Shown one piece after another: positions 37,534 to 48,120 of a DNA stretch of 64,000 nt (position 1 is its first letter; each line of letters opens with the position of its first letter). The DNA lies in NCBI GenBank assembly GCA_030427245.1, contig JAUHXA010000036.1, positions 1 through 64,000 of the forward strand, written 5' to 3'. The notes under the pieces are model-generated. The model did no database searches. It saw nothing but the letters and a program-made list of their open reading frames with translations, and had not been told where the DNA came from. This DNA comes from Bacteroidia bacterium. GTDB lineage: Bacteria > Bacteroidota > Bacteroidia > Chitinophagales > UBA2359. A program made the position numbers and the translations under genes.

Positions 37534-38517
37534 TTATCCCACCCACTCCTTCACCAAAGGCAAAATCTCCGCCTCCAAGTCCATCTGAAATTTACTCAAA
37601 ACAGCTCGTTCTCCACCTTCAAAAAAACATTCAATTTGATACAAATTTTGATTGTTTACTTGAATCTCTTGTGTCTCCATTGCAGTCTGTTTCTCCAAAA
37701 TAGTGTATGTTTTCTCCTTCAACTGGACTCCATCACCATTATACGCCTCCGCTTCTTTTATCTTTTCACCTAACAATTTCACCTCCCGAAAACCCCACTT
37801 CAAGGCATCCCATTTTTTGGAGTTCAAAACCAACCGAACTGCGTCCACATCTTTCGGCAAATCCCAACTAAAAGTATAACCTGCACTTTTGGTCAGCAAC
37901 AAATAACCGTCCACCTGCTTTCCATTTACTTCAAAAGTAGCCTTTTGTTGTACTATTTTTTCCGCTTCAAAAAAGCCCATTTTGCAGCCCGTCATTTTCT
38001 TATCGAAGTAGTCCGCAAACTTTTGCCGAGTCTTCAAAGGCAATCTTTTGTCAGTTGCCTCCACAAAACCTTTTTCTTTTTGCAGTTCTAAAAAGGAGTT
38101 GGCAATCAGCATCATTTTTCGATTTGTGTCATAGTTTTTTTCTTCAAAAACTCCCGTTGCGCCCACCTTTCCTTCTTCCATAATGAAAGTCTTGTCATTT
38201 GCAGCCATTGCCCAGAAAGAATCGCCTTTTTCGAAGTAGAGATTGAGGGTGTCTTTTGTGTCGATTGATAGGTAATATATTTTATACTTACCTGGCTGTC
38301 TATACCCCCAAGTATTTCGATGCTTCTTGTAGAGGTAGTCCATGCCCTGCGAAACCTGTCTTTGGGCAGCACTGTAGCCTTGACTTCGGAGGCGATTTTT
38401 GACCTCCAAAGTTGTGGTTTCATTGTTGAGCGTCATCAAATATTCGGCTGCTTCTTTTGTAGCTGCTTCGGTGAGCATTTTTAAGGATGGTTGATTCATA
38501 AAATGTATGTTATCCAA
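37534..38517 (-). CDS. Protein with N-terminal helical domain and degenerate WGR-like domain
   Basis: The 327-residue protein is cytosolic by sequence. Residues about 98-155 resemble a WGR domain: FWAMAANDK, then GKVGATG in the place of GR(I/V)GxxG, then ELQKEKGF in the place of KxxKGY. The same order is seen in the PARP protein encoded 1.2 kb upstream (GRVGSRG...RKGY). Residues 1-75 look like a small helix-rich, possibly winged-helix, domain (LEVKNRLRSQGYSAAQRQVS). The C-terminal part is mixed alpha/beta and unassigned. WGR domains bind nucleic-acid ends, so it may belong with the PARP/SWIM cluster. The call rests on weak motifs. Confidence 0.6.
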   Translation of the reverse strand: MDNIHFMNQPSLKMLTEAATKEAAEYLMTLNNETTTLEVKNRLRSQGYSAAQRQVSQGMDYLYKKHRNTWGYRQPGKYKIYYLSIDTKDTLNLYFEKGDSFWAMAANDKTFIMEEGKVGATGVFEEKNYDTNRKMMLIANSFLELQKEKGFVEATDKRLPLKTRQKFADYFDKKMTGCKMGFFEAEKIVQQKATFEVNGKQVDGYLLLTKSAGYTFSWDLPKDVDAVRLVLNSKKWDALKWGFREVKLLGEKIKEAEAYNGDGVQLKEKTYTILEKQTAMETQEIQVNNQNLYQIECFFEGGERAVLSKFQMDLEAEILPLVKEWVG

Positions 38518-38643
38518 TTAATTGTTGTTTTCCTAAAATAAAACAAGAATTTGAGTATTCATAAGAATCTGCTCCTAAAACCATATTCTTGTGAATCCAA
38601 AAATTCTTGTTGTCTTACTTCAATATTTAATCAATAATAAAAA

Positions 38644-39342
38644 CTAACGTTTTTTATTGACACGTTCTGTTTGTGATTGGTACAAGGTTTCGCTGGTTTC
38701 TTGCCCCGCCTTATCTTGTTTCACATATTCTACTTCAATTTTGGAGAAATTAAGGCTAATTTGATCTACAGGAACTACATCCCCACTCGAACCGCCTGTT
38801 TGATAGCTCGAAACCAGTACATCCTTCAATTTGATGACATAGTATTCCTGGCGGTTGTCGTTGTTATCGTATTTGACAATTTTCACCCTAGGGATAGGTT
38901 GGTTGTTTTGCGTCAAGTTTGCCAACAAAGGAGTAGATTTATCCATTGATTTCACTACTACCACATCACCTAATGTCGTTTCACCTTTGGTGCGTGCAGT
39001 GGCAGCGACTTCATTGGGTTCAAACACAAAAACAGCCAATGCATGCCATCCTTTGTGATTTTTATCGTTGGATTCTCCTGCAATACCTTCAATTTTCATA
39101 AAAGCCGCAGCTTGTCCCGTTGAAGGGCTTGGATTAACATTTGAAAAAGAGAGCAAATTGATCCAGTCTTTGTGTTTAGCATCTGTAGACTCTCCTTTGA
39201 TGTCACCAATTTTGATATAACCTGTTGCAGCCCTTTGATTGTCTTTATTGTTTTGAATGGTTTCAGATTGAGCAACACTATTCTGATAAGCACCCAATAC
39301 AAGTATCAGTGCAAAAACAAATAATACTTTAAGATTTTTCAT
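38644..39342 (-). CDS. Exported Hcp-like protein
   Basis: The 232-residue protein has a signal peptide ending near SVAQ, then an Hcp/DUF796-like domain. The motif IKIGDIKGESTDAKHKDW (about 43-60) is repeated as MKIEGIAGESNDKNHKGW (about 82-99), followed by DVVVVKSMDKSTPLLA and a C-terminal LNFSKIEVEYV strand. Classical Hcp tube proteins of type VI secretion are not exported by Sec and are shorter (about 160 residues). A signal peptide plus a duplicated first motif suggests an Hcp-fold surface or periplasmic protein. No other T6SS gene is present. Confidence 0.8.
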   Translation of the reverse strand: MKNLKVLFVFALILVLGAYQNSVAQSETIQNNKDNQRAATGYIKIGDIKGESTDAKHKDWINLLSFSNVNPSPSTGQAAAFMKIEGIAGESNDKNHKGWHALAVFVFEPNEVAATARTKGETTLGDVVVVKSMDKSTPLLANLTQNNQPIPRVKIVKYDNNDNRQEYYVIKLKDVLVSSYQTGGSSGDVVPVDQISLNFSKIEVEYVKQDKAGQETSETLYQSQTERVNKKR

Positions 39343-39483
39343 TCTAAGAAGGTTTAAAAGTTAAGAAAATCAAGAAAAGGGCTGCATACAATAATTATCA
39401 ATAACCTTCTAATTTAAGCAAAAATCACGAGATTTGAAAATGTTTTTTGCTTATTATCAGCAAACTAAAATATTGAATTTACA

Positions 39484-39594
39484 TTACTCTCCTTGATAAA
39501 ACACTTGTTGTGTTTTCTCTTCTTCTTCGTTCCTTTCTGTATAAGTCACTTTGATTTCTTCAAAAATCAATAAAAATACTTTGAAATCTTTCAT
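39484..39594 (-). pseudogene. Internally deleted paralogue of the Hcp-like gene
   Basis: A 36-codon minus-strand frame starts MKDFKVFLL, like the Hcp-like signal start MKNLKVLFV, and jumps directly to FEEIKVTYTERNEEE and a QQVFYQGE tail, like the C-terminal FSKIEVEYV...ETLYQSQ of the neighbour. The sequence just before its ATG also resembles that before the Hcp-like gene. The middle 170 residues are missing, so it is best read as a duplicate with a large internal deletion. Translation of the short peptide is possible but unsupported. Confidence 0.7.
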
Positions 39595-39692
39595 CTTGAA
39601 AAGGTTTTTGAAATTTAAAAATGTAAAAAATGAATTGTCGCTTTCCATAGATGAAGCTCTTTTTTACATTTGGAACATAAACCTAAAAAGAA

Positions 39693-40973
39693 TTAAACCA
39701 CCTCCACCAAATACCGTACCGTACACTGTTTTTCATTGTAAACAATATACTCATTGTTCACCAAATCTGCCCCACCTTCTGCAAAAAGAGAATCGTACTG
39801 AGCACCTTTTTTCTTCAAGTTGGTTTCATTCAGTTCATAGCACCAAGATTCGTGTTTTTGAATGTGAAACTGATTGCCCGTATGCACATCAAACAAAGCC
39901 AAAAAGCCTTTTGATTGCGTTCCTTTTGCCCAATAAGAGCCACGCAAAGAAGTGTAATTCAGTGATTTTTGAAATTTGTCGGCAAAGTAGGTGCCATAAC
40001 CAAACATCTTGCCCGTCACCACCGCATTTGCAGGACGAAGTACCAAACCCGTTTCCAAAATCGACAGCCAATTTTCATTGCGGCTTCCGTGCCAAAACAG
40101 GTGTTTTTGTTGATTCTTCTTAGAGCCAATCCAATCGTCAAATCCTCTTTGCGTTTTGAGGTTTTTAACCGCAAAAGCTTTGGAGAATTGATTTGCATTG
40201 GGGCCCATTTTGCTCTTAATCAATTCAATCGTACTCGAATCCGTCACCGATTCAATCTGCAAACCTATTCCCTCCAACAAGTTCAATTCTTTCTTCTCTA
40301 CTTTCACATCTGCCTCCAAACTATTCACTTTCACCTGTCCACGCATGACATCCAAAGTCGCCTGTTCTTCCACTAACTTCTCTCTAATCGCCTCCAAATC
40401 CTCTTCATTACTCGGTCTTTCAATCAGATGTTCGCCTACTTTGGTCATTTTTCGAGGAATCACCTGATACAATTCGAGCAATACACTATTGAATCGTTTG
40501 GTATTCACACCAGTTTTGCGATTGTTTCCATCCACCCAAAGCCCCGTTTTCAACTGTGCCACCAAACTATCCAGCAAGGTTTGTGCTTCTTCGACTTGTC
40601 GCTGTGTCACCTGATTTGCAGACACCGTATAGTTGTGACTAATAGATTTGGTTGCATACGCCATGAGTTCGGTAATCAATCGCTGCACCAGTTCATCGTC
40701 CACATCTACCAACTCCAATTTCGGTTCACCCGTTCCCGCTACAGCAAACAAATGCGTTTGGTCTTTGTAACCTTTTCGCACCTTCTCATTGTACTTTTTG
40801 TTCCATTGCGAAACAGGATAACGTTGAGCAGTACCACGGCTACCAACTCGACCATAGGTGACGGTAAATGTGCCATCACCATTCTCCGACATTTCGTAGA
40901 ACTTGTTGTTGTTATTTGGAGTCACCATGATGAGTTTGGCTGTGCGATTGATGACGGTTGATGTATCTTTCAT
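39693..40973 (-). CDS. Bacterial WGR-PARP (poly/mono-ADP-ribosyltransferase)
   Basis: The 426-residue protein has an N-terminal WGR domain (about 12-75; YGRVGSRG at 40-47, KGYKD at 67-71), a helical PARP regulatory-like domain (about 90-255) and a C-terminal PARP catalytic domain. The H-Y-E triad is complete: His295 (FWHGSR), Tyr329 (GYGTYFADK) and Glu408 (NNEYIVYN), as in eukaryotic PARP1-3, so NAD-dependent ADP-ribosylation with chain extension is plausible. WGR domains in PARPs sense nucleic-acid ends. Such full PARPs are rare in bacteria. It lies downstream of the SWIM and helical-repeat genes on the same strand. Confidence 0.93.
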   Translation of the reverse strand: MKDTSTVINRTAKLIMVTPNNNNKFYEMSENGDGTFTVTYGRVGSRGTAQRYPVSQWNKKYNEKVRKGYKDQTHLFAVAGTGEPKLELVDVDDELVQRLITELMAYATKSISHNYTVSANQVTQRQVEEAQTLLDSLVAQLKTGLWVDGNNRKTGVNTKRFNSVLLELYQVIPRKMTKVGEHLIERPSNEEDLEAIREKLVEEQATLDVMRGQVKVNSLEADVKVEKKELNLLEGIGLQIESVTDSSTIELIKSKMGPNANQFSKAFAVKNLKTQRGFDDWIGSKKNQQKHLFWHGSRNENWLSILETGLVLRPANAVVTGKMFGYGTYFADKFQKSLNYTSLRGSYWAKGTQSKGFLALFDVHTGNQFHIQKHESWCYELNETNLKKKGAQYDSLFAEGGADLVNNEYIVYNEKQCTVRYLVEVV

Positions 40974-41370: not shown

Positions 41371-43020
41371 TTAACTTCTCGCCCCAGTAAGCGTAGTCGC
41401 CATGATATGAGCACAAGGTCCTTGACGCAATTTGTTACGACGGAAAAAACCACAAGTACACTCCGCATATTTCACCCGACCATCCGCATCCACACGCACC
41501 ACAGGTTTGAAAGTTTTGTCTGCTTTATCACTGACAACCTCCGCTTTATACTCCGTCACCTTTTTATCATCCGTTGATTTCTCCACGATTTTCACCTTGC
41601 CATCCTTCATCAAGCTTATCGCAAACTTCAATCGTTTGTCATCCTCAGGCTCTTCAATCACGATTTCTTTCGGTAAAAGTTTTCGCCAGCGATATGTTTC
41701 CGTGAGATGGTCGTACATCGCCTGACCATTCTTGCAAAGCTCTTGCAGGGCAGCAGCAGCCGTTTGTTGTGGGAGTGAAAGCCAAGCTGCAAATTCAATA
41801 GGCGTTCCCGCCAATTTCTGAATCAAAGCCTTTTCGATGTTCTTCACATCCTCTTCCTTTGGCTTCGTAGTCGCTGCCAACAAGTCGAAATTGCCTTTTT
41901 GTGACCAATCGTTGGAAGTCCAACCCGACAAACCCACATCAAAACGGTGTCCGTCAATTGTTACCGACCAATAATGCGGCATTCCCGTTCCCAACAATTT
42001 CACCTGAACACTGTCCGAATATGCCAAAAGTGACTTCAATACCATCAAACGCCTCCGCCCCCAAATCCGCACTTCGCCTTCCATATTGCCCTTATAGACA
42101 AACTCATGTTCTTGAATCTCAATGCCCCAAGGGTCAATCACGATTTTCGGCTTTTCGCCTTTTTTCAGCACAAATCGAATCGAACGAGGGCTCTCCTTTT
42201 CTTTTCGCTGCTCCAAAACCGACAGGATTTCGTTCATCGTTGCAGAAGAAATGTTCAAATCTACGCCAGGCATCGTTGAAGCCGATTGCACTTGCAGAAA
42301 ACCTCGCACCCAAGATTCGGGCAGGTCGATTTTCTTTTCCACACGACTGCCTGCGCTGGTCGACAATTGCACTTGCTCATAAGCAACTTTGAGCCAAGCA
42401 GCTCGGTAAGAACGGACTCTATATATTTCATCCGCTAATCCTTGACTGAAATCAATGTTGGTCGTGCCATATTTGGGTTCACCATACATCTCCAAATTTT
42501 CGACAGGCACACTTACTCGCCCATAACTCGACTCGTCCAACGAAAATGCTTCAAAAATCACACAATCGGGATGCACACTAATAACAGGGTCATACGCATA
42601 CCATTTTTCCTTGTCGTATTTGCGGAGATAAGCATAATAATCCCATTTCACCCGCTGCATTTCCTTGCGAATCGGCTGTATAATCTTGTTTACCTCGCTT
42701 ATTTTTCCCTTCAAAATGTTTTTCTCCCCCAACAATTTCACCTTTTCGGCTTCAATATGTCCGTAGTGATTCGGCACTTCTTTGAGGTATTCTTGATAGA
42801 CCCATTCTTGGTATTGAGTGTAATCTTTGATCTTAGAACGCCAATCACCTGTCACAATTTCACGCAATGCCAACATGATTTTTCCATAAGCCAAACTGTT
42901 GTGAATCATTGCATGAAGCGATACAGGAGGTCGGGACAATTCGGGAGATAGATTGAAGTGCATCCCGTCTTTGTCCGTTTTTGCCGTACTTGGTTTTGCG
43001 TAAGATTGTGTAATTTGCAT
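41371..43020 (-). CDS. SWIM zinc-finger protein
   Basis: The 549-residue protein ends in a SWIM zinc finger, CxCx12CxH, at Cys521, Cys523, Cys536 and His538 (ECTCGFFRR...GPCAHIM). SWIM fingers bind DNA or protein and occur in bacteria with SNF2 helicases and in multi-gene conflict-type clusters. The rest of the protein has no domain I can name: a coiled-coil-like segment (about 85-130), a beta-rich middle and a short winged-helix-like segment near residue 410 (FAAWLSLPQQTAAAALQEL). It lies between the helical-repeat and PARP genes on one strand. Confidence 0.85.
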   Translation of the reverse strand: MQITQSYAKPSTAKTDKDGMHFNLSPELSRPPVSLHAMIHNSLAYGKIMLALREIVTGDWRSKIKDYTQYQEWVYQEYLKEVPNHYGHIEAEKVKLLGEKNILKGKISEVNKIIQPIRKEMQRVKWDYYAYLRKYDKEKWYAYDPVISVHPDCVIFEAFSLDESSYGRVSVPVENLEMYGEPKYGTTNIDFSQGLADEIYRVRSYRAAWLKVAYEQVQLSTSAGSRVEKKIDLPESWVRGFLQVQSASTMPGVDLNISSATMNEILSVLEQRKEKESPRSIRFVLKKGEKPKIVIDPWGIEIQEHEFVYKGNMEGEVRIWGRRRLMVLKSLLAYSDSVQVKLLGTGMPHYWSVTIDGHRFDVGLSGWTSNDWSQKGNFDLLAATTKPKEEDVKNIEKALIQKLAGTPIEFAAWLSLPQQTAAAALQELCKNGQAMYDHLTETYRWRKLLPKEIVIEEPEDDKRLKFAISLMKDGKVKIVEKSTDDKKVTEYKAEVVSDKADKTFKPVVRVDADGRVKYAECTCGFFRRNKLRQGPCAHIMATTLTGARS

Positions 43021-43381: not shown

Positions 43382-46240
43382 TTATCCAATAGCAAACCCC
43401 TCAACTTCTTCCCCCGCCAAAGCCATCTTCGTCAATTGCTCAATCGCCCATTCTCTGTCCTTCGTATTGCGGCTTCGAGCCAATTCCATGAGCGTTTTCG
43501 TGTCCACATTTTCAGCATCTAAGTCTTGCAGGCGAGACTTAACCAACTCCTTGACCTTGCGCCCTTTGTTGCGGCTTCTCAACACCGATTTGTCGAAATA
43601 CTGAACAAAATCTTCTTTTGCCTCTTTCTTTTCCGCCAAAGATTTCGCTACAAATTCTTGGATTCGTACATCCGTATGTTCTGCAAGAGAAGCTATCGCA
43701 ATGTCGTTTTTCTTCAAGTTTTCTTTACGGGTTTCAAAATATTTCAGCCCATAGCCACGAACTACACCTTGTGGACTGTCACACAGTGCCAATACATATT
43801 CGACTTCATCTTTGTCACCCATCGGCACATTTTCAAAATATTCTCTGCCTTTGTGGAAAGTTTCGGGCATTCCAGCCTCCATCATTCGCAGGGCAAAAGG
43901 AATGGTGATTCCCACTTTATCGGCTTGTGCAAAACCCCACTTTCTGATTTTTGGGTCTTTGTGAATCACCGTTTTGAACAAACCATCCGAATTAGAACCG
44001 AACATATCCAAATGTTGCTGAATCCATTCGTAGAGCATTTTGGCATAAATCGGCTGGTGATTGTCCAAAACTTCCACATTGTCGGTTTGGTAAAACAATT
44101 GAAGCATTTCCTCATCTTCAATCGTGCGATTTTGCAGCGTAGTTGTGGTTTCATTGGGGATTGCAGCCAAAATTTGCGACCACATTGAAGGGTTTTTTTC
44201 AATAAATTTCAGTAAATGAGAACGAATTGAAGTCCAGTCATTTTCCGAAACGGTTTTGATTAAATCCAATGCTGTATTTTGATTCAGCAAGTCGACTACA
44301 TATTCAAAAATTGGTATCAAACGGTTGATTAATTCGGGTTTGCCTTCAATAATTGCAGGCAATATATCGAAGAAAAGGCTTTTTACTTTTTCGTTGTCGG
44401 TATTCATCATCAACTCGATGAAATTCTTAGAAGTATCTATTTCAACATGTTGAAGGTTGACCGTGATGAGTTCGGTAAATTTGGCTTCGTTGAGGCATTT
44501 CTCAACCAAGAGTTGCCAAGAAATTTCTTTCATCCATTCGTTTGGATTCACCAAAGCATAGATGAAAGCACGTCCATTCAGATGACTGGCACCAACACCA
44601 TTTTTGAGGTTCAAATAAATGATATCTCGCTCTTCCTCCAATTCTGCAATGAAGGGCAACCAGCCTAAAAAATTGTGCGCTCTTGCATTTTGGTAAAAAA
44701 GTGGTTTTAAGGCTTCTTTGAGACGAGGAAGTGCATTTTTATAAATAAAAATAAAATTTTGTTTGTACCACATCACCCAATTCAATTGGTTTTTGGAGTG
44801 CTTCAATAACAGGTCCACACCGTATTCCGACTGAATGAAATTTAGTAGGTTGGTGCTTTGACCATAGTTGTAATAGTGTCTACCCCAAAATCGCTGCGTA
44901 AATCGAGCCTGTTGCGACCATTTGCTGACCAAATGCCAACCAAAATCGGCAATTGAAAATTCTTGATGAAAAACAAATCCTTCCAATTCGTTCCATGTCA
45001 AATTCTTCACATCCATTTTGCGGATGAATAAAGTTTGTAAGCGTTCACGTATGGCAGATTTTTCGGAAGGAACGGCGGTTAGCCAAGTCATAATATTGCT
45101 GCCTGCTACCTGATCTGCCACTGCAAAAGCCAATTCGTGTAATCGCTCGTCTTGTGCTTGAAAAATGGTTTGGATGTGTTTATTGACAACCGTAAACGAC
45201 ACATACTCTTTGAGTTTGAGTATCAAATTCATTATGTCTTTCAATCGTCGTTTAGAAACGGCTTGTTCATTTTGGCTGAAGAAAATGTGGGCAATATTTG
45301 CAGTGAAAGTACGGTACCAAGTTTGGGTGTTTTTTGGAGAAGGCGTTGAAGCTTGTTCGTTCATTCCCAAAGCAGACCGCACCATTTTTCCGAACCATGA
45401 AGCATTTGCAGAGGAACTTGAGGTATTGTTTTTTGTATTTCCTTCAATGATTTCTTTGATTTCGGAGAAAAGTGTTTGACGAATATTGGCAGGAGAATAG
45501 AAGTAAGTATAAGCCAATAGTTGAGGGTCTTGCAATTGTCCGTTTTTGAATTGTTGATAGGCTTGATGGGCTGCAATGATTTGAAGCCAAACGGAATCGG
45601 ATTCAAAAAAGGTTTTCAATTGCGCTTGACTCAAATGAGGGATTTCTACACGATTTGCAGAAAGTGTTTTTGCAGCAAATGCGTAAATGACTGGATTCAA
45701 ATCTTTTTTCTGCAATAATTGAGCGACAAAATCTGGATTGTCTGCCCAAATCTGAGGTGCTGCACTTTCAATTCGAGCAATGTTTGCAGTATTTTCTAAA
45801 CGTATATAAGCTCCTCTTCCATGTCGTTTTTGCTCGTATTGTTTGGAAGTGCCAAACAGCATTTTTACCATCACCCATTGATTCACAAAATCAATCTCGT
45901 CTCTTTGATTCTCCAATAAATCGCTACAAATATCGAAATAAAGTTGAGGATTGTTTTTGGCAGCATTTCGCAAAAAACGATTGGCTCGGCGTTTCATATA
46001 GCCCAATGTTGCCTTTGTCGGAAATTTGCTTTTTAAATCCGAAAATTTAGCTTTGTCCAATTTGTTGATTAACAAAGTGAGCAATTCCACATTGGGATTG
46101 GCTTCCAATTGTTTGTAAAACCCCTTTATAACCTGCCAATGATCTTCGGCAAGCGGTGCGGCTTCCAAATAGGTCGCTGCTGCTTGGATTTCTTCGGCAG
46201 TTTCGGGAAATTTAGTTAGGAGTTCGGTATATGCTTGCAT
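43382..46240 (-). CDS. Large helical-repeat (HEAT-like) protein of the PARP/SWIM cluster
   Basis: The 952-residue protein is almost wholly alpha-helical, with helix-pair repeats of HEAT/ARM type. Clear units are near 780-900 (KDPKIRKWGFAQADKVG, GVVRGYGLKYFETRKEN, TDVRIQEFVAKSLAEKKE, NTKDREWAIEQLTKMA). A basic motif GYMKRRANRFLRN lies near residue 83, and a Ser/Asn-rich linker near 270. There is no signal peptide, membrane helix or recognisable catalytic motif. It is probably a scaffold or nucleic-acid-binding protein, transcribed towards the SWIM and PARP genes. Its start codon faces the RNA array at 46519 on the opposite strand. I cannot assign a named family. Confidence 0.75.
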   Translation of the reverse strand: MQAYTELLTKFPETAEEIQAAATYLEAAPLAEDHWQVIKGFYKQLEANPNVELLTLLINKLDKAKFSDLKSKFPTKATLGYMKRRANRFLRNAAKNNPQLYFDICSDLLENQRDEIDFVNQWVMVKMLFGTSKQYEQKRHGRGAYIRLENTANIARIESAAPQIWADNPDFVAQLLQKKDLNPVIYAFAAKTLSANRVEIPHLSQAQLKTFFESDSVWLQIIAAHQAYQQFKNGQLQDPQLLAYTYFYSPANIRQTLFSEIKEIIEGNTKNNTSSSSANASWFGKMVRSALGMNEQASTPSPKNTQTWYRTFTANIAHIFFSQNEQAVSKRRLKDIMNLILKLKEYVSFTVVNKHIQTIFQAQDERLHELAFAVADQVAGSNIMTWLTAVPSEKSAIRERLQTLFIRKMDVKNLTWNELEGFVFHQEFSIADFGWHLVSKWSQQARFTQRFWGRHYYNYGQSTNLLNFIQSEYGVDLLLKHSKNQLNWVMWYKQNFIFIYKNALPRLKEALKPLFYQNARAHNFLGWLPFIAELEEERDIIYLNLKNGVGASHLNGRAFIYALVNPNEWMKEISWQLLVEKCLNEAKFTELITVNLQHVEIDTSKNFIELMMNTDNEKVKSLFFDILPAIIEGKPELINRLIPIFEYVVDLLNQNTALDLIKTVSENDWTSIRSHLLKFIEKNPSMWSQILAAIPNETTTTLQNRTIEDEEMLQLFYQTDNVEVLDNHQPIYAKMLYEWIQQHLDMFGSNSDGLFKTVIHKDPKIRKWGFAQADKVGITIPFALRMMEAGMPETFHKGREYFENVPMGDKDEVEYVLALCDSPQGVVRGYGLKYFETRKENLKKNDIAIASLAEHTDVRIQEFVAKSLAEKKEAKEDFVQYFDKSVLRSRNKGRKVKELVKSRLQDLDAENVDTKTLMELARSRNTKDREWAIEQLTKMALAGEEVEGFAIG

Positions 46241-46374: not shown

Positions 46375-46429
46375 CTGAAAAACCTAAAAATATAAAACGG
46401 TTATTTGCCACTAACCTATTACATTGTTG

Positions 46430-46508
46430 TATTGCTATATGGTCATACTGCTTCATTTCCATTATTGAATTGAGAAAAGCAATATGACAATACAACCATA
46501 TAGCAATA
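46430..46508. repeat. Imperfect inverted repeat before the RNA array
   Basis: A left arm at 46430-46452 (ATTGCTATATGGTCATACTG region) pairs with 46477-46508 apart from one bulge of about eight bases. The composition resembles the TTGTATGG tracts at 1134 and 22301. It ends about ten bases before the first RNA element. Confidence 0.65.
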
Positions 46509-46518
46509 AAATAAATTC

Positions 46519-46744
46519 CTGTTACTAATCTTGCTGAGGACTGACAGCAATACTGTAGGCGGCTGGAGCATTGGTAGGCCTTGGTTTTAATAATTGGCGT
46601 GAGCAATGCTTATTCAGCGTAGAAAGTTGAAAACCAAGGCCTACCAATGTGGAAGACGCTGATTGTCGTTGGTGTTCAGTGAAGTATGTTGAACTTTACT
46701 GCTACTAGGGCGAATCGCCTTAGCTGTTTTATATATGCTAACAG
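46519..46744 (+). ncRNA. Structured RNA element, array copy 1
   Basis: Closing helix P1: CTGTTA (46519-46524) / TAACAG (46739-46744). P2: TTGCTG (46531-46536) / CAGCAA (46545-46550) with loop AGGACTGA. The conserved TACTGTAGGCGGCT follows. The copy-specific helix P3 is 20 bp perfect (46569-46588 / 46630-46649), enclosing a 41-nt loop that contains TCAGCGT (46614-46620), complementary to ACGCTGA (46656-46662) just after P3, which gives a pseudoknot. P4: CAGTGAAG (46677-46684) / CTTTACTG (46694-46701), with one G-U. P5: CTAGGGCG (46705-46712) / CGCCTTAG (46716-46723). Eight T follow at 46751. Plus-strand orientation is favoured by the G-U pairs. Confidence 0.85.
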
Positions 46745-46841
46745 AAACCATTTTTTTTGAAGTAGGAGGTAGGAAGAGAGAAGTAGGATTATTTATCTCA
46801 TTTCTTGCTTCATACATCTTACATCTTGCTTCTCGAAGAAA

Positions 46842-47072
46842 GGTTTTGATTACTAAACTGGCTTAGGACTGGAGCCAATACTGTAGGCGGCTATCAGTAA
46901 GTATGTACGTCTAAAAATGGATGAAGTGGGCGACTGTCTATTCAGCGTGAAAGAGAGTAGTAGACGTACATACTTACTTAGAGACGCTGATTGTCGTTGG
47001 CTTTCGGTGAAGTATGTCGAACTTTACCATGACTGCGGCGAATCACCGCAGCTTGTGATGCTAACAAAAACC
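46842..47072 (+). ncRNA. Structured RNA element, array copy 2
   Basis: P1: 46842-46852 / 47062-47072 (9 of 11 paired). P2 is TGGCT (46859-46863) / AGCCA (46873-46877), different bases from the other copies but still paired, with the same AGGACTG loop core. P3 is 18 bp perfect (46896-46913 / 46961-46978) and unrelated in sequence to the other copies; its loop is 47 nt. Pseudoknot strands are TCAGCGT (46942-46948) and ACGCTGA (46984-46990). P4: GGTGAAG (47006-47012) / CTTTACC (47022-47028), a compensated A-U to G-C change. P5: CTGCGGCG (47033-47040) / CACCGCAG (47044-47051), with one C-A mismatch. Confidence 0.85.
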
Positions 47073-47096
47073 TTCTTTACTTAATAAAAATTAAAA

Positions 47097-47325
47097 ATTT
47101 CGTTACTAACTTGCTGAGGACTGGCAGCAATACTGTAGGCGGCTGGCACCATAGGGGTGCGGTTTTAATTCTACCGCAGTGGACAACGTCTATTCAGCGT
47201 GGAGGGGCATTAAAACCGCACCCCTATGGTAGAAGACGCTGATTGTCGTTGATGTTCAGTGAAGTATATCGAACTTTACTGCTTACTACGGCGAAACACC
47301 GCAGCTTTTACATTGCTAACGAAAT
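47097..47325 (+). ncRNA. Structured RNA element, array copy 3
   Basis: P1 is 9 bp perfect: ATTTCGTTA (47097-47105) / TAACGAAAT (47317-47325). P2: TTGCTG (47111-47116) / CAGCAA (47125-47130). P3 is 22 bp perfect (47148-47169 / 47209-47230), with a 39-nt loop. Pseudoknot strands: TCAGCGT (47194-47200) / ACGCTGA (47236-47242). P4: CAGTGAAG (47257-47264) / CTTTACTG (47274-47281). P5: 47286-47293 / 47297-47304. The loop-proximal end of P3 (GGTTTTAAT) is shared in part with copy 1; the rest of the helix differs. Confidence 0.85.
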
Positions 47326-47416
47326 ATTTTTGTGATTGAAAAATCAATCAATTTATTCTAAAATCAAAGAACAAAACAAATATACACTAAAAAAAGAAAT
47401 GTAAACAAAAATAATA

Positions 47417-47650
47417 AATTTCGTTACTAAACTTGCTGAGGACTGACAGCAATACTGTAGGCATCTGGAACACGGCGCTGGTAAATTTAGGGTTGAATTT
47501 GTGGACTACGTTTTTCTCAGCGAAAAACAGCCCAAAATTTACCAGCGCCATAGTGGAGGATGCTGATTGTCGTTGTTGTTTGGTGAAGTATGTGGAACTT
47601 TACCGTTGGCTGCGGTGAAACACCGAAGTTGATATTTTGCTAATGAAATT
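47417..47650 (+). ncRNA. Structured RNA element, array copy 4
   Basis: P1 is 10 bp, AATTTCGTTA (47417-47426) / TAATGAAATT (47641-47650), with one G-U. P2: TTGCTG (47433-47438) / CAGCAA (47447-47452). P3: 47474-47495 / 47528-47549, 22 positions with one A-A mismatch and one U-G. Pseudoknot strands: TCAGCG (47517-47522) / TGCTGA (47561-47566), again with G-U. P4: GGTGAAG (47582-47588) / CTTTACC (47598-47604). P5: CTGCGGTG (47610-47617) / CACCGAAG (47621-47628), where a U-A pair replaces the C-A of other copies. A 61-codon frame inside it is incidental. Confidence 0.85.
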
Positions 47651-47686
47651 AACTAATAATGGGAAACTTTTAGGAACTTCAATTTT

Positions 47687-47737
47687 AAATTTCAAACTCA
47701 ACTTCAAAAAAATGAGTTTGAAATTTGGTTTTTTTTT
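47687..47737 (+). terminator. Intrinsic terminator of the RNA array
   Basis: A perfect 14-bp stem AAATTTCAAACTCA (47687-47700) / TGAGTTTGAAATTT (47713-47726) is followed by GG and nine T (47729-47737). No T-run follows on the minus strand. It lies 36 nt after copy 4, so it should end plus-strand transcription of the array and separates it from metG. Confidence 0.85.
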
Positions 47738-48120
47738 ATTCATTGAAGTGAATAAAATTACTAAAATAAATAGTATTTTTATTTAGAAAAGGGGGAGCAT
47801 TAGAAAAGTGTATTTGTTGAAGCATAAATATTTATTTTATGTTGCTTATCAATTACTTGATTAATTATTGATGTATCATTCACTGTTCATATAGTACAAC
47901 CAAAACAGGGGGGCATTAGTTCCAAATTCGCTATTTTTTTTAGTATTTTTTTATTCTTTTTTAGCAATGCCCTATAAGTCCATGATTTTGTGAAGCTTGT
48001 TATTGAAGGCTACTAAGAAAAAAGTCTCTTTTCTCACTTCCCACATCTGACCTTTATTTTTTCACCAATACTAACTGGCGATTTCTTACTTTTGCAGTTG
48101 GTTAGATTAAAAGAAAAGAC
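47738..48120 (+). promoter_or_regulatory. metG upstream region with candidate promoter
   Basis: The AT-rich spacer holds no gene. TACTTTTGC at 48087-48095 fits the Bacteroidota -7 consensus TAnnTTTG and lies 26 nt before the metG start; no convincing -33 TTTG was found at the right distance. No T-box or other leader fold is evident. Confidence 0.45.

Follow-up and report, generated by a model that had tools for sequence, protein, structure and literature searches.

Four tandem putative retron RNAs with differing stems beside type XIII effector genes in a Bacteroidia genome

What are four tandem RNA-like elements that share a scaffold and differ in one long hairpin, and why should a bacterium keep four of them side by side? 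The question is raised by a contig of a Bacteroidia bacterium of the Chitinophagales (GenBank assembly GCA_030427245.1, contig JAUHXA010000036.1), and the whole stretch analysed, positions 1 to 64,000 of its forward strand, is called here the window. A previous sequence-only reading had described the array as elements of ~230 nt with a common scaffold, and had offered guide-like or decoy RNAs, a retron-like template or RNAs bound by the adjacent proteins as possible roles. The four units are real and, to judge from their sequence organization, almost certainly represent tandem retron msr-msd RNAs whose functional strand is the minus strand. As an overall explanation, a type XIII retron whose non-coding RNA (ncRNA) gene was multiplied into four self-contained msr-msd units, with the reverse transcriptase (RT) acting in trans, seems to us rather probable.

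Anatomy of the four units

Two covariance models were used, R1 built from the window copies and R2 from 15 other type XIII ncRNAs that include no window-family sequence. The units are the following:

46517..46750, minus strand: msr-msd copy 1, nearest the effector gene; msd arms 46630-46649 and 46569-46588; R2 match at E=0.0028
46845..47073, minus strand: msr-msd copy 2; msd arms 46961-46987 and 46887-46913; R2 match at E=0.022
47098..47328, minus strand: msr-msd copy 3; msd arms 47209-47239 and 47139-47169; R2 match at E=1.7e-4
47419..47652, minus strand: msr-msd copy 4, farthest upstream; msd arms 47523-47549 and 47474-47500; no R2 match at E ≤ 1

Read on the minus strand, each unit follows one plan, in which an arm a1 ending in TTA is followed by GC, an msr hairpin, a long msd hairpin and a second arm, a2. 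A recent commentary describes the retron ncRNA plan in the same terms, as inverted repeats plus a priming G (PMC13158370). The earlier reading had taken the plus strand, which corresponds to that of the presumed multicopy single-stranded DNA (msDNA) product; on this strand copy 3 folds 5.6 standard deviations below its own dinucleotide shuffles. The motif TTAGC is present in all four window copies and in 12 of 14 family copies (one has CTAGC and one lacks it), and its G would prime reverse transcription. TTAGC occurs in Ec86 as well.

The a1 and a2 arms vary between copies, and a1 pairs best with its own a2 in 4/4 window units and in 3/4 units of each of two related loci, L047 and L044 (10/12 in the three arrays), so that each unit looks self-contained. 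This pair is the P1 helix of the earlier description, whose P4 and P5 fall in the msr region; the hairpin with an AGGACTG loop (P2) does appear in the window consensus, but it is absent from the consensus of 14 family copies and is thus not a family-wide feature. In these 14 copies (the alignment omits one of 15, L041 3927), the closing a1/a2 repeats show double changes in 6/8 pairs. Over the complete fold, double changes that keep the pairing occur in 33/42 pairs of the R2 set and in 37/48 pairs of the 14 window-family copies, including 17 of the 28 that lie outside the msd. Both ncRNA families keep a common order of a1, msr hairpin, CAC pairing, msd stem and a2, where the CAC pairing is a short helix with its start at a conserved CAC and its closure on the far side of the msd. 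The sequence CGCTG is found in the msd loop (e.g. 47170-47208) of 14/15 window-family copies, and its complement CAGCG stands just before the stem in most of them, which may represent a contact between loop and flank.

At the same place in each unit lies a different inverted repeat, of 20, 27, 31 and 27 nt in copies 1 to 4 with 100, 89, 87 and 85% complementarity, respectively. The copy-specific helix of the earlier reading is confirmed. The scaffolds show a mean identity of 0.70 (5′) and 0.73 (3′) over the six pairs of copies, as claimed for a common scaffold, whereas the stem arms reach 0.45 and 0.44 over the same pairs, against 0.42 for shuffled arms.

Model R1 detects six copies in genome G005, four in G015 and one in G007, all on the strand of a HEAT gene and upstream of it; the G007 copy overlaps the HEAT frame when this is taken at its longest. 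Model R2 finds three of the four window copies in register, at the E-values given above, and 11/11 copies of G005, G015 and G007 at E ≤ 0.022. Retron anatomy, type XIII neighbours and R2 matches together vindicate the suggestion of a retron-like template.

No further array copies were found elsewhere in the 7.58-Mb genome, either by BLAST or by the covariance model (four matches at E ≤ 0.001). No Rfam family was found at the gathering threshold in the window, nor in loci L044, L047 and L049, and a permissive Rfam scan of 46400-47800 gave sub-threshold matches only; a tRNA/tmRNA search of the window gave none. Between copy 1 and the start of the HEAT gene, positions 46420-46514 contain an imperfect inverted repeat with no R1 or R2 match, which may be what is left of a unit or else an element resembling a terminator.

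Type XIII genes and a probable partner reverse transcriptase in trans

Downstream of the array and on the same (minus) strand lie a HEAT/ARM gene and a SWIM gene, the combination of SWIM with a HEAT/ARM or WGR partner being that of retron type XIII:

43382..46240, minus strand: HEAT/ARM-repeat protein of 952 aa, putative retron XIII accessory or effector protein; PADLOC HEAT-ARM_XIII PDLC02921, E=8.8e-24
41371..43020, minus strand: SWIM zinc-finger protein of 549 aa, retron XIII component; PADLOC SWIM_XIII PDLC02972, E=3.7e-168
47377..47408, minus strand: candidate Bacteroidota-type promoter TTG-N21-TATATTTG, upstream of copy 3; a weak candidate, with 10 such matches on the same strand in 64 kb

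The earlier pointer to the adjacent proteins was well placed. For the HEAT/ARM protein no Pfam family was found at E ≤ 0.001, and the promoter search used the Bacteroidota-type consensus. After the SWIM gene, on the same strand, come a WGR-PARP protein (39693-40973) and a protein with a weak WGR match (37534-38517; E 0.059), with an Hcp-like gene (38644-39342) between the two; this region, 37534-40973, occupies the place where G005 and G007 carry their RT.

The search for RVT_1 genes in the genome yielded two, on contigs C131 and C26, and none on the window contig (C116). The one on C131 (L052:6652-7758) was rejected as a partner, its best PADLOC models being a generic RT and UG17, which are not retron models. 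The one on C26 (G000:C26:6456-7841) matches RT_XIII at E=4.9e-161 with PADLOC, is the only type XIII RT of the genome, and is 65% identical to the RT of G005, which lies 3′ of the SWIM gene on the same strand. It carries NAEPH, YADD and VTG, the last of which is a motif of retron RTs. The first fits NAXXH, a retron RT motif (PMC6868368). The genome thus holds a type XIII RT with both NAXXH and VTG, and from its sequence this RT is very likely the partner of the window array.

The system resembles retron type XIII, represented by the PADLOC models RT_XIII, HEAT-ARM_XIII or WGR_XIII and SWIM_XIII, in its effector genes, in the family of its RT and in the plan of its ncRNA; it differs from the usual layout in carrying four ncRNA units instead of one, in having its RT on another contig, and in an array that lies ahead of the HEAT gene instead of next to the RT. 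A type XIII retron has also been called by PADLOC in Variovorax (PMC11953036). To place the window among its relatives, 80 named loci were used; these are the top 80 among at least 559 and are biased towards relatives of the query. With R2 they gave 98 matches at E ≤ 0.1 in 76/80 loci, and 13 loci had at least two matches, some of them cut or weak. Counting as a unit any ncRNA with a stem of at least 13 pairs, 9/62 loci with RT in cis carry two or more (L054, L057, L058, L059, L063, L094 from Acidobacteria, L103, L113 and L124). In branches other than that of the window the ncRNA precedes the RT, usually between SWIM and RT, or ahead of an RT-first operon in some loci (L046, L073, L103); in 59/62 loci with RT in cis, no more than 1.2 kb separates the end of the last unit from the RT that follows.

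Arrays of two to six copies recur in Bacteroidota, with six copies in G005, four plus a second array of four in G015, four in G010, and three plus one stemless unit in G191; one Acidobacteriota locus has four R2 matches. When 298 genomes of the order were searched with R2 at E ≤ 1e-4, 11 gave a match, and four of the 11 gave at least three; the window genome itself does not reach this cut. In G015 (L042 and L047; 78% complete, 3% contamination) there are two type XIII systems distinct from each other, and both have an array of four units. As for mobile records, type XIII SWIM gave no match in phage records at E ≤ 1e-10, and the type XIII RT query gave six matches in plasmid records, only that of Methylobacterium bullatum (52%, 92% covered) being type XIII-like.

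Some observations weigh against the proposed explanation. The RT is unlinked to the array, so that the usual layout of an RT beside its ncRNA does not apply, and neither R1 nor R2 matches an ncRNA in the 16 kb around the C26 RT. Copy 4 is missed by R2 and the E-values of the other window copies are modest. Moreover, 53/62 sampled type XIII loci with RT in cis carry one ncRNA only. The missing RT and the bare surroundings of the lone RT would also fit a decaying retron that lost its RT from the locus, the C26 RT serving something else and the array being unused. A stemless unit does exist elsewhere: in L049 and L054 (L049:7811-8018, L054:10826-11033) the fourth unit keeps its scaffold and has lost the long stem, with 7 bp left, and it is an array member in decay. 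All four window units, by contrast, retain TTAGC, the a1/a2 pair and the stem, and the HEAT, SWIM and RT frames are open.

An RT placed elsewhere also has precedents. No RT was seen in 18/80 named loci, many of them on short contigs. Six of the RT-less loci had ~8 kb of downstream sequence, and five genomes, all cyanobacteria picked as lacking an RT in cis, were searched beside that of L089 (RT in cis). All five have a type XIII RT away from SWIM: in Moorena bouillonii it lies megabases apart on the same 8.26-Mb replicon, in ESFC-1 ~1.1 Mb from SWIM (where R2 finds no ncRNA beside the SWIM gene), in another Moorena 27 kb away, and in the remaining two on other contigs. The split layout is thus not unique to the window genome, and decay seems a distinctly improbable account of the array. 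Around the five lone cyanobacterial RTs, in stretches of 10.6-19 kb each, no ncRNA was matched by R2 at E below 0.9. In the stretches taken around such RTs (L268, L269, L270, L271, L272) there is no SWIM or WGR match.

Divergence of the stems

If the array is a type XIII retron with its RT in trans, the remaining part of the question is why there are four units. The comparison of stems left out 5/98 R2 matches (three cut by a contig end and two with E above 0.01) as well as L048 and L049, which are the same records as L131 and L054. Arm identity, words and G-U pairs were analysed without the 3/120 copies with fewer than 13 stem pairs, and arm identity also without five one-copy loci that were incomplete or special. 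Arms measure 15-36 nt in 113/120 copies and 20-31 nt in the window.

In the cores of the stems (113 copies) there are 2,077 Watson-Crick, 43 G-U and 127 mismatched pairs, that is, 43 G-U in 2,120 standard pairs, whereas the msr hairpins of the same copies, scored in the same way, contain 765 Watson-Crick, 213 G-U and 44 mismatched pairs (213 G-U in 978). Since G-U pairs are fewer than mismatches, the stem seems to have been selected in its DNA form, which is that of msDNA. Stems matched between genomes make up 16 pairs with 456 positions, of which 367 are unchanged, 10 are changed on one side and 79 in both arms, 77 of the 79 being paired in both genomes; these pairs were picked for similar stems and share copies, and arms were found by pairing score, so the counts favour paired positions. 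The claim that both arms change together is hence sustained (79/89 changed positions are double), but it need not mean programming, as such double changes could be explained by selection for a DNA duplex or by template-switch repair of imperfect palindromes.

Copy-specific variable segments within a fixed scaffold would fit guide or decoy RNAs against particular mobile elements. Nevertheless, one arm of 19-20 nt per stem has no exact match in a collection of viral contigs, mismatched, plasmid and host targets being covered only by BLAST against the own genome; a 15-mer of copy 4 gives at least 120 matching stretches in the viral contigs, for which chance suffices at this length. Each segment, moreover, pairs with itself, and the anatomy and neighbours are those of a retron. 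Guides or decoys thus appear very improbable indeed, and the earlier suggestion of a guide-like RNA finds no support as regards mobile elements.

A second account keeps the same retron and proposes that the array only raises dosage: the stem may be a DNA duplex of any sequence, and copies drift while quasi-palindrome template switching copies one arm into the other. The near lack of one-sided intermediates (79 double against 10 one-sided changes in 456 positions) is what template-switch hairpin repair gives. Mere drift fits less well with the divergence within arrays. At a scaffold identity of 0.7-0.8, arm identity is 0.42 in array paralogues (19 pairs, 7 arrays) against 0.61 in single-copy loci of different genomes (147 pairs), and at 0.8-0.9 it is 0.51 (21 pairs) against 0.66 (87 pairs), the compared pairs not being independent. 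For other arrays, mean arm identity over 38 pairs is 0.48, compared with 0.40 for shuffled arms. Preferred words are also retained, with TACTA in 14/39 R2-family arms against 1.7 expected. In a wider set of 53 dissimilar stems, whose arms are partly still related, TACTA (16/53 against 2.6 expected), GGTAC, AGGGG, CCCTA and ATAGG are over-represented.

Drift is further opposed by the conservation of stems between species. Loci L044 and L047, whose RTs are 87% identical, have three of four stems in common in permuted order, the fourth being different, and one of these stems has both arms identical at a scaffold identity of 86%, so it is conserved beyond its scaffold. In these loci the stem appears to belong to its slot, being kept while slots differ from each other, as expected of several distinct sensors. 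Because of such slot-kept stems, and because known retrons are triggered through their msDNA, we favour the reading of the four units as parallel msDNA sensors of one abortive-infection system, tentatively and at somewhat less than even chance.

This preference has to be set against several facts. Gene conversion of the scaffold would also make stems look diverse. Some array stems are still related (one L063 pair at 0.85, L103 at 0.61-0.87, L113 at 0.71, and also L124). The window stems match none of the stems of their relatives G005, G015 and G007, as dosage would have it, and slot conservation is seen in other branches only; window-family relatives may be too distant for stem matches. Altogether, dosage is a possible explanation, which we place on the unlikely side.

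Proposed mechanism and its implications

Under the reading of parallel sensors, the trans RT would prime from the G of TTAGC and copy every msd, so that four msDNAs would arise, each with a DNA stem of its own. The RT-msDNA complexes would keep the HEAT/ARM-SWIM effectors inactive until a phage product modified, cleaved or stripped a stem, upon which the effectors would be freed and the cell would abort infection. Different stems would broaden or tune the set of triggers.

The retrons Ec86, Ec83 and Eco8 have one ncRNA each. As presented in the 2026 commentary (PMC13158370), they resemble the window system in the inverted repeats around msr and msd, the priming G and an msDNA hairpin that gates the effector, and they differ in having other effectors. 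The commentary also names what triggers them by way of the msDNA: Ec86 responds to a Dcm-like methyltransferase, Ec83 to degradation and Eco8 to SSB (PMC13158370). No paper on natural retrons with several ncRNAs, on split retrons or on type XIII function was among the literature matches listed, and an earlier mention is possible. Engineered retron arrays for multi-site editing reportedly hold several retron units per array, to go by a title; those are built for editing, whereas the window array is natural and its stems differ.

The SWIM protein adds a further element. Its AlphaFold model (pLDDT 64.7, pTM 0.40) resembles a PCNA clamp at residues 34-369 (Z 16.4, root-mean-square deviation (rmsd) 3.2, 218/245 residues), and that of its L113 homologue, 33% identical to it, resembles PCNA with Z 21.4, rmsd 2.7 and 232/244 residues (pLDDT 77.0, pTM 0.75). 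The protein is thus modelled as a two-domain PCNA-like clamp fold plus a SWIM zinc finger. The likeness to the PCNA and 9-1-1 sliding clamps concerns this predicted two-domain fold, from which the protein departs by an identity of 7-14% among the matches listed, a long helical insertion and the C-terminal SWIM domain; a common fold with PCNA by itself shows no function. It is a speculation that the msd stems are long enough for a clamp ring. The fullest version of the idea is a natural multiplexed retron in which one trans RT makes a panel of msDNAs, slot-by-slot divergence has turned the duplex stems into separate phage sensors, and the PCNA-like SWIM clamp encircles or parks on these stems until one is altered by an enzyme of a phage. 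As a whole we regard it as unlikely, if conceivable.

A PCNA-like fold would be unexpected as part of a retron effector. The split RT implies that such systems would escape surveys that start from the surroundings of RTs, and that lone RTs would be left without an explanation. The relation between the sequence of an msDNA and what it recognises is still unclear according to the commentary (PMC13158370), and a natural array with a held scaffold and differing stems is a ready-made experiment on msDNA recognition. If the multiplexed retron were true, sensor specificity would be written in the msd stem and exchangeable slot by slot.
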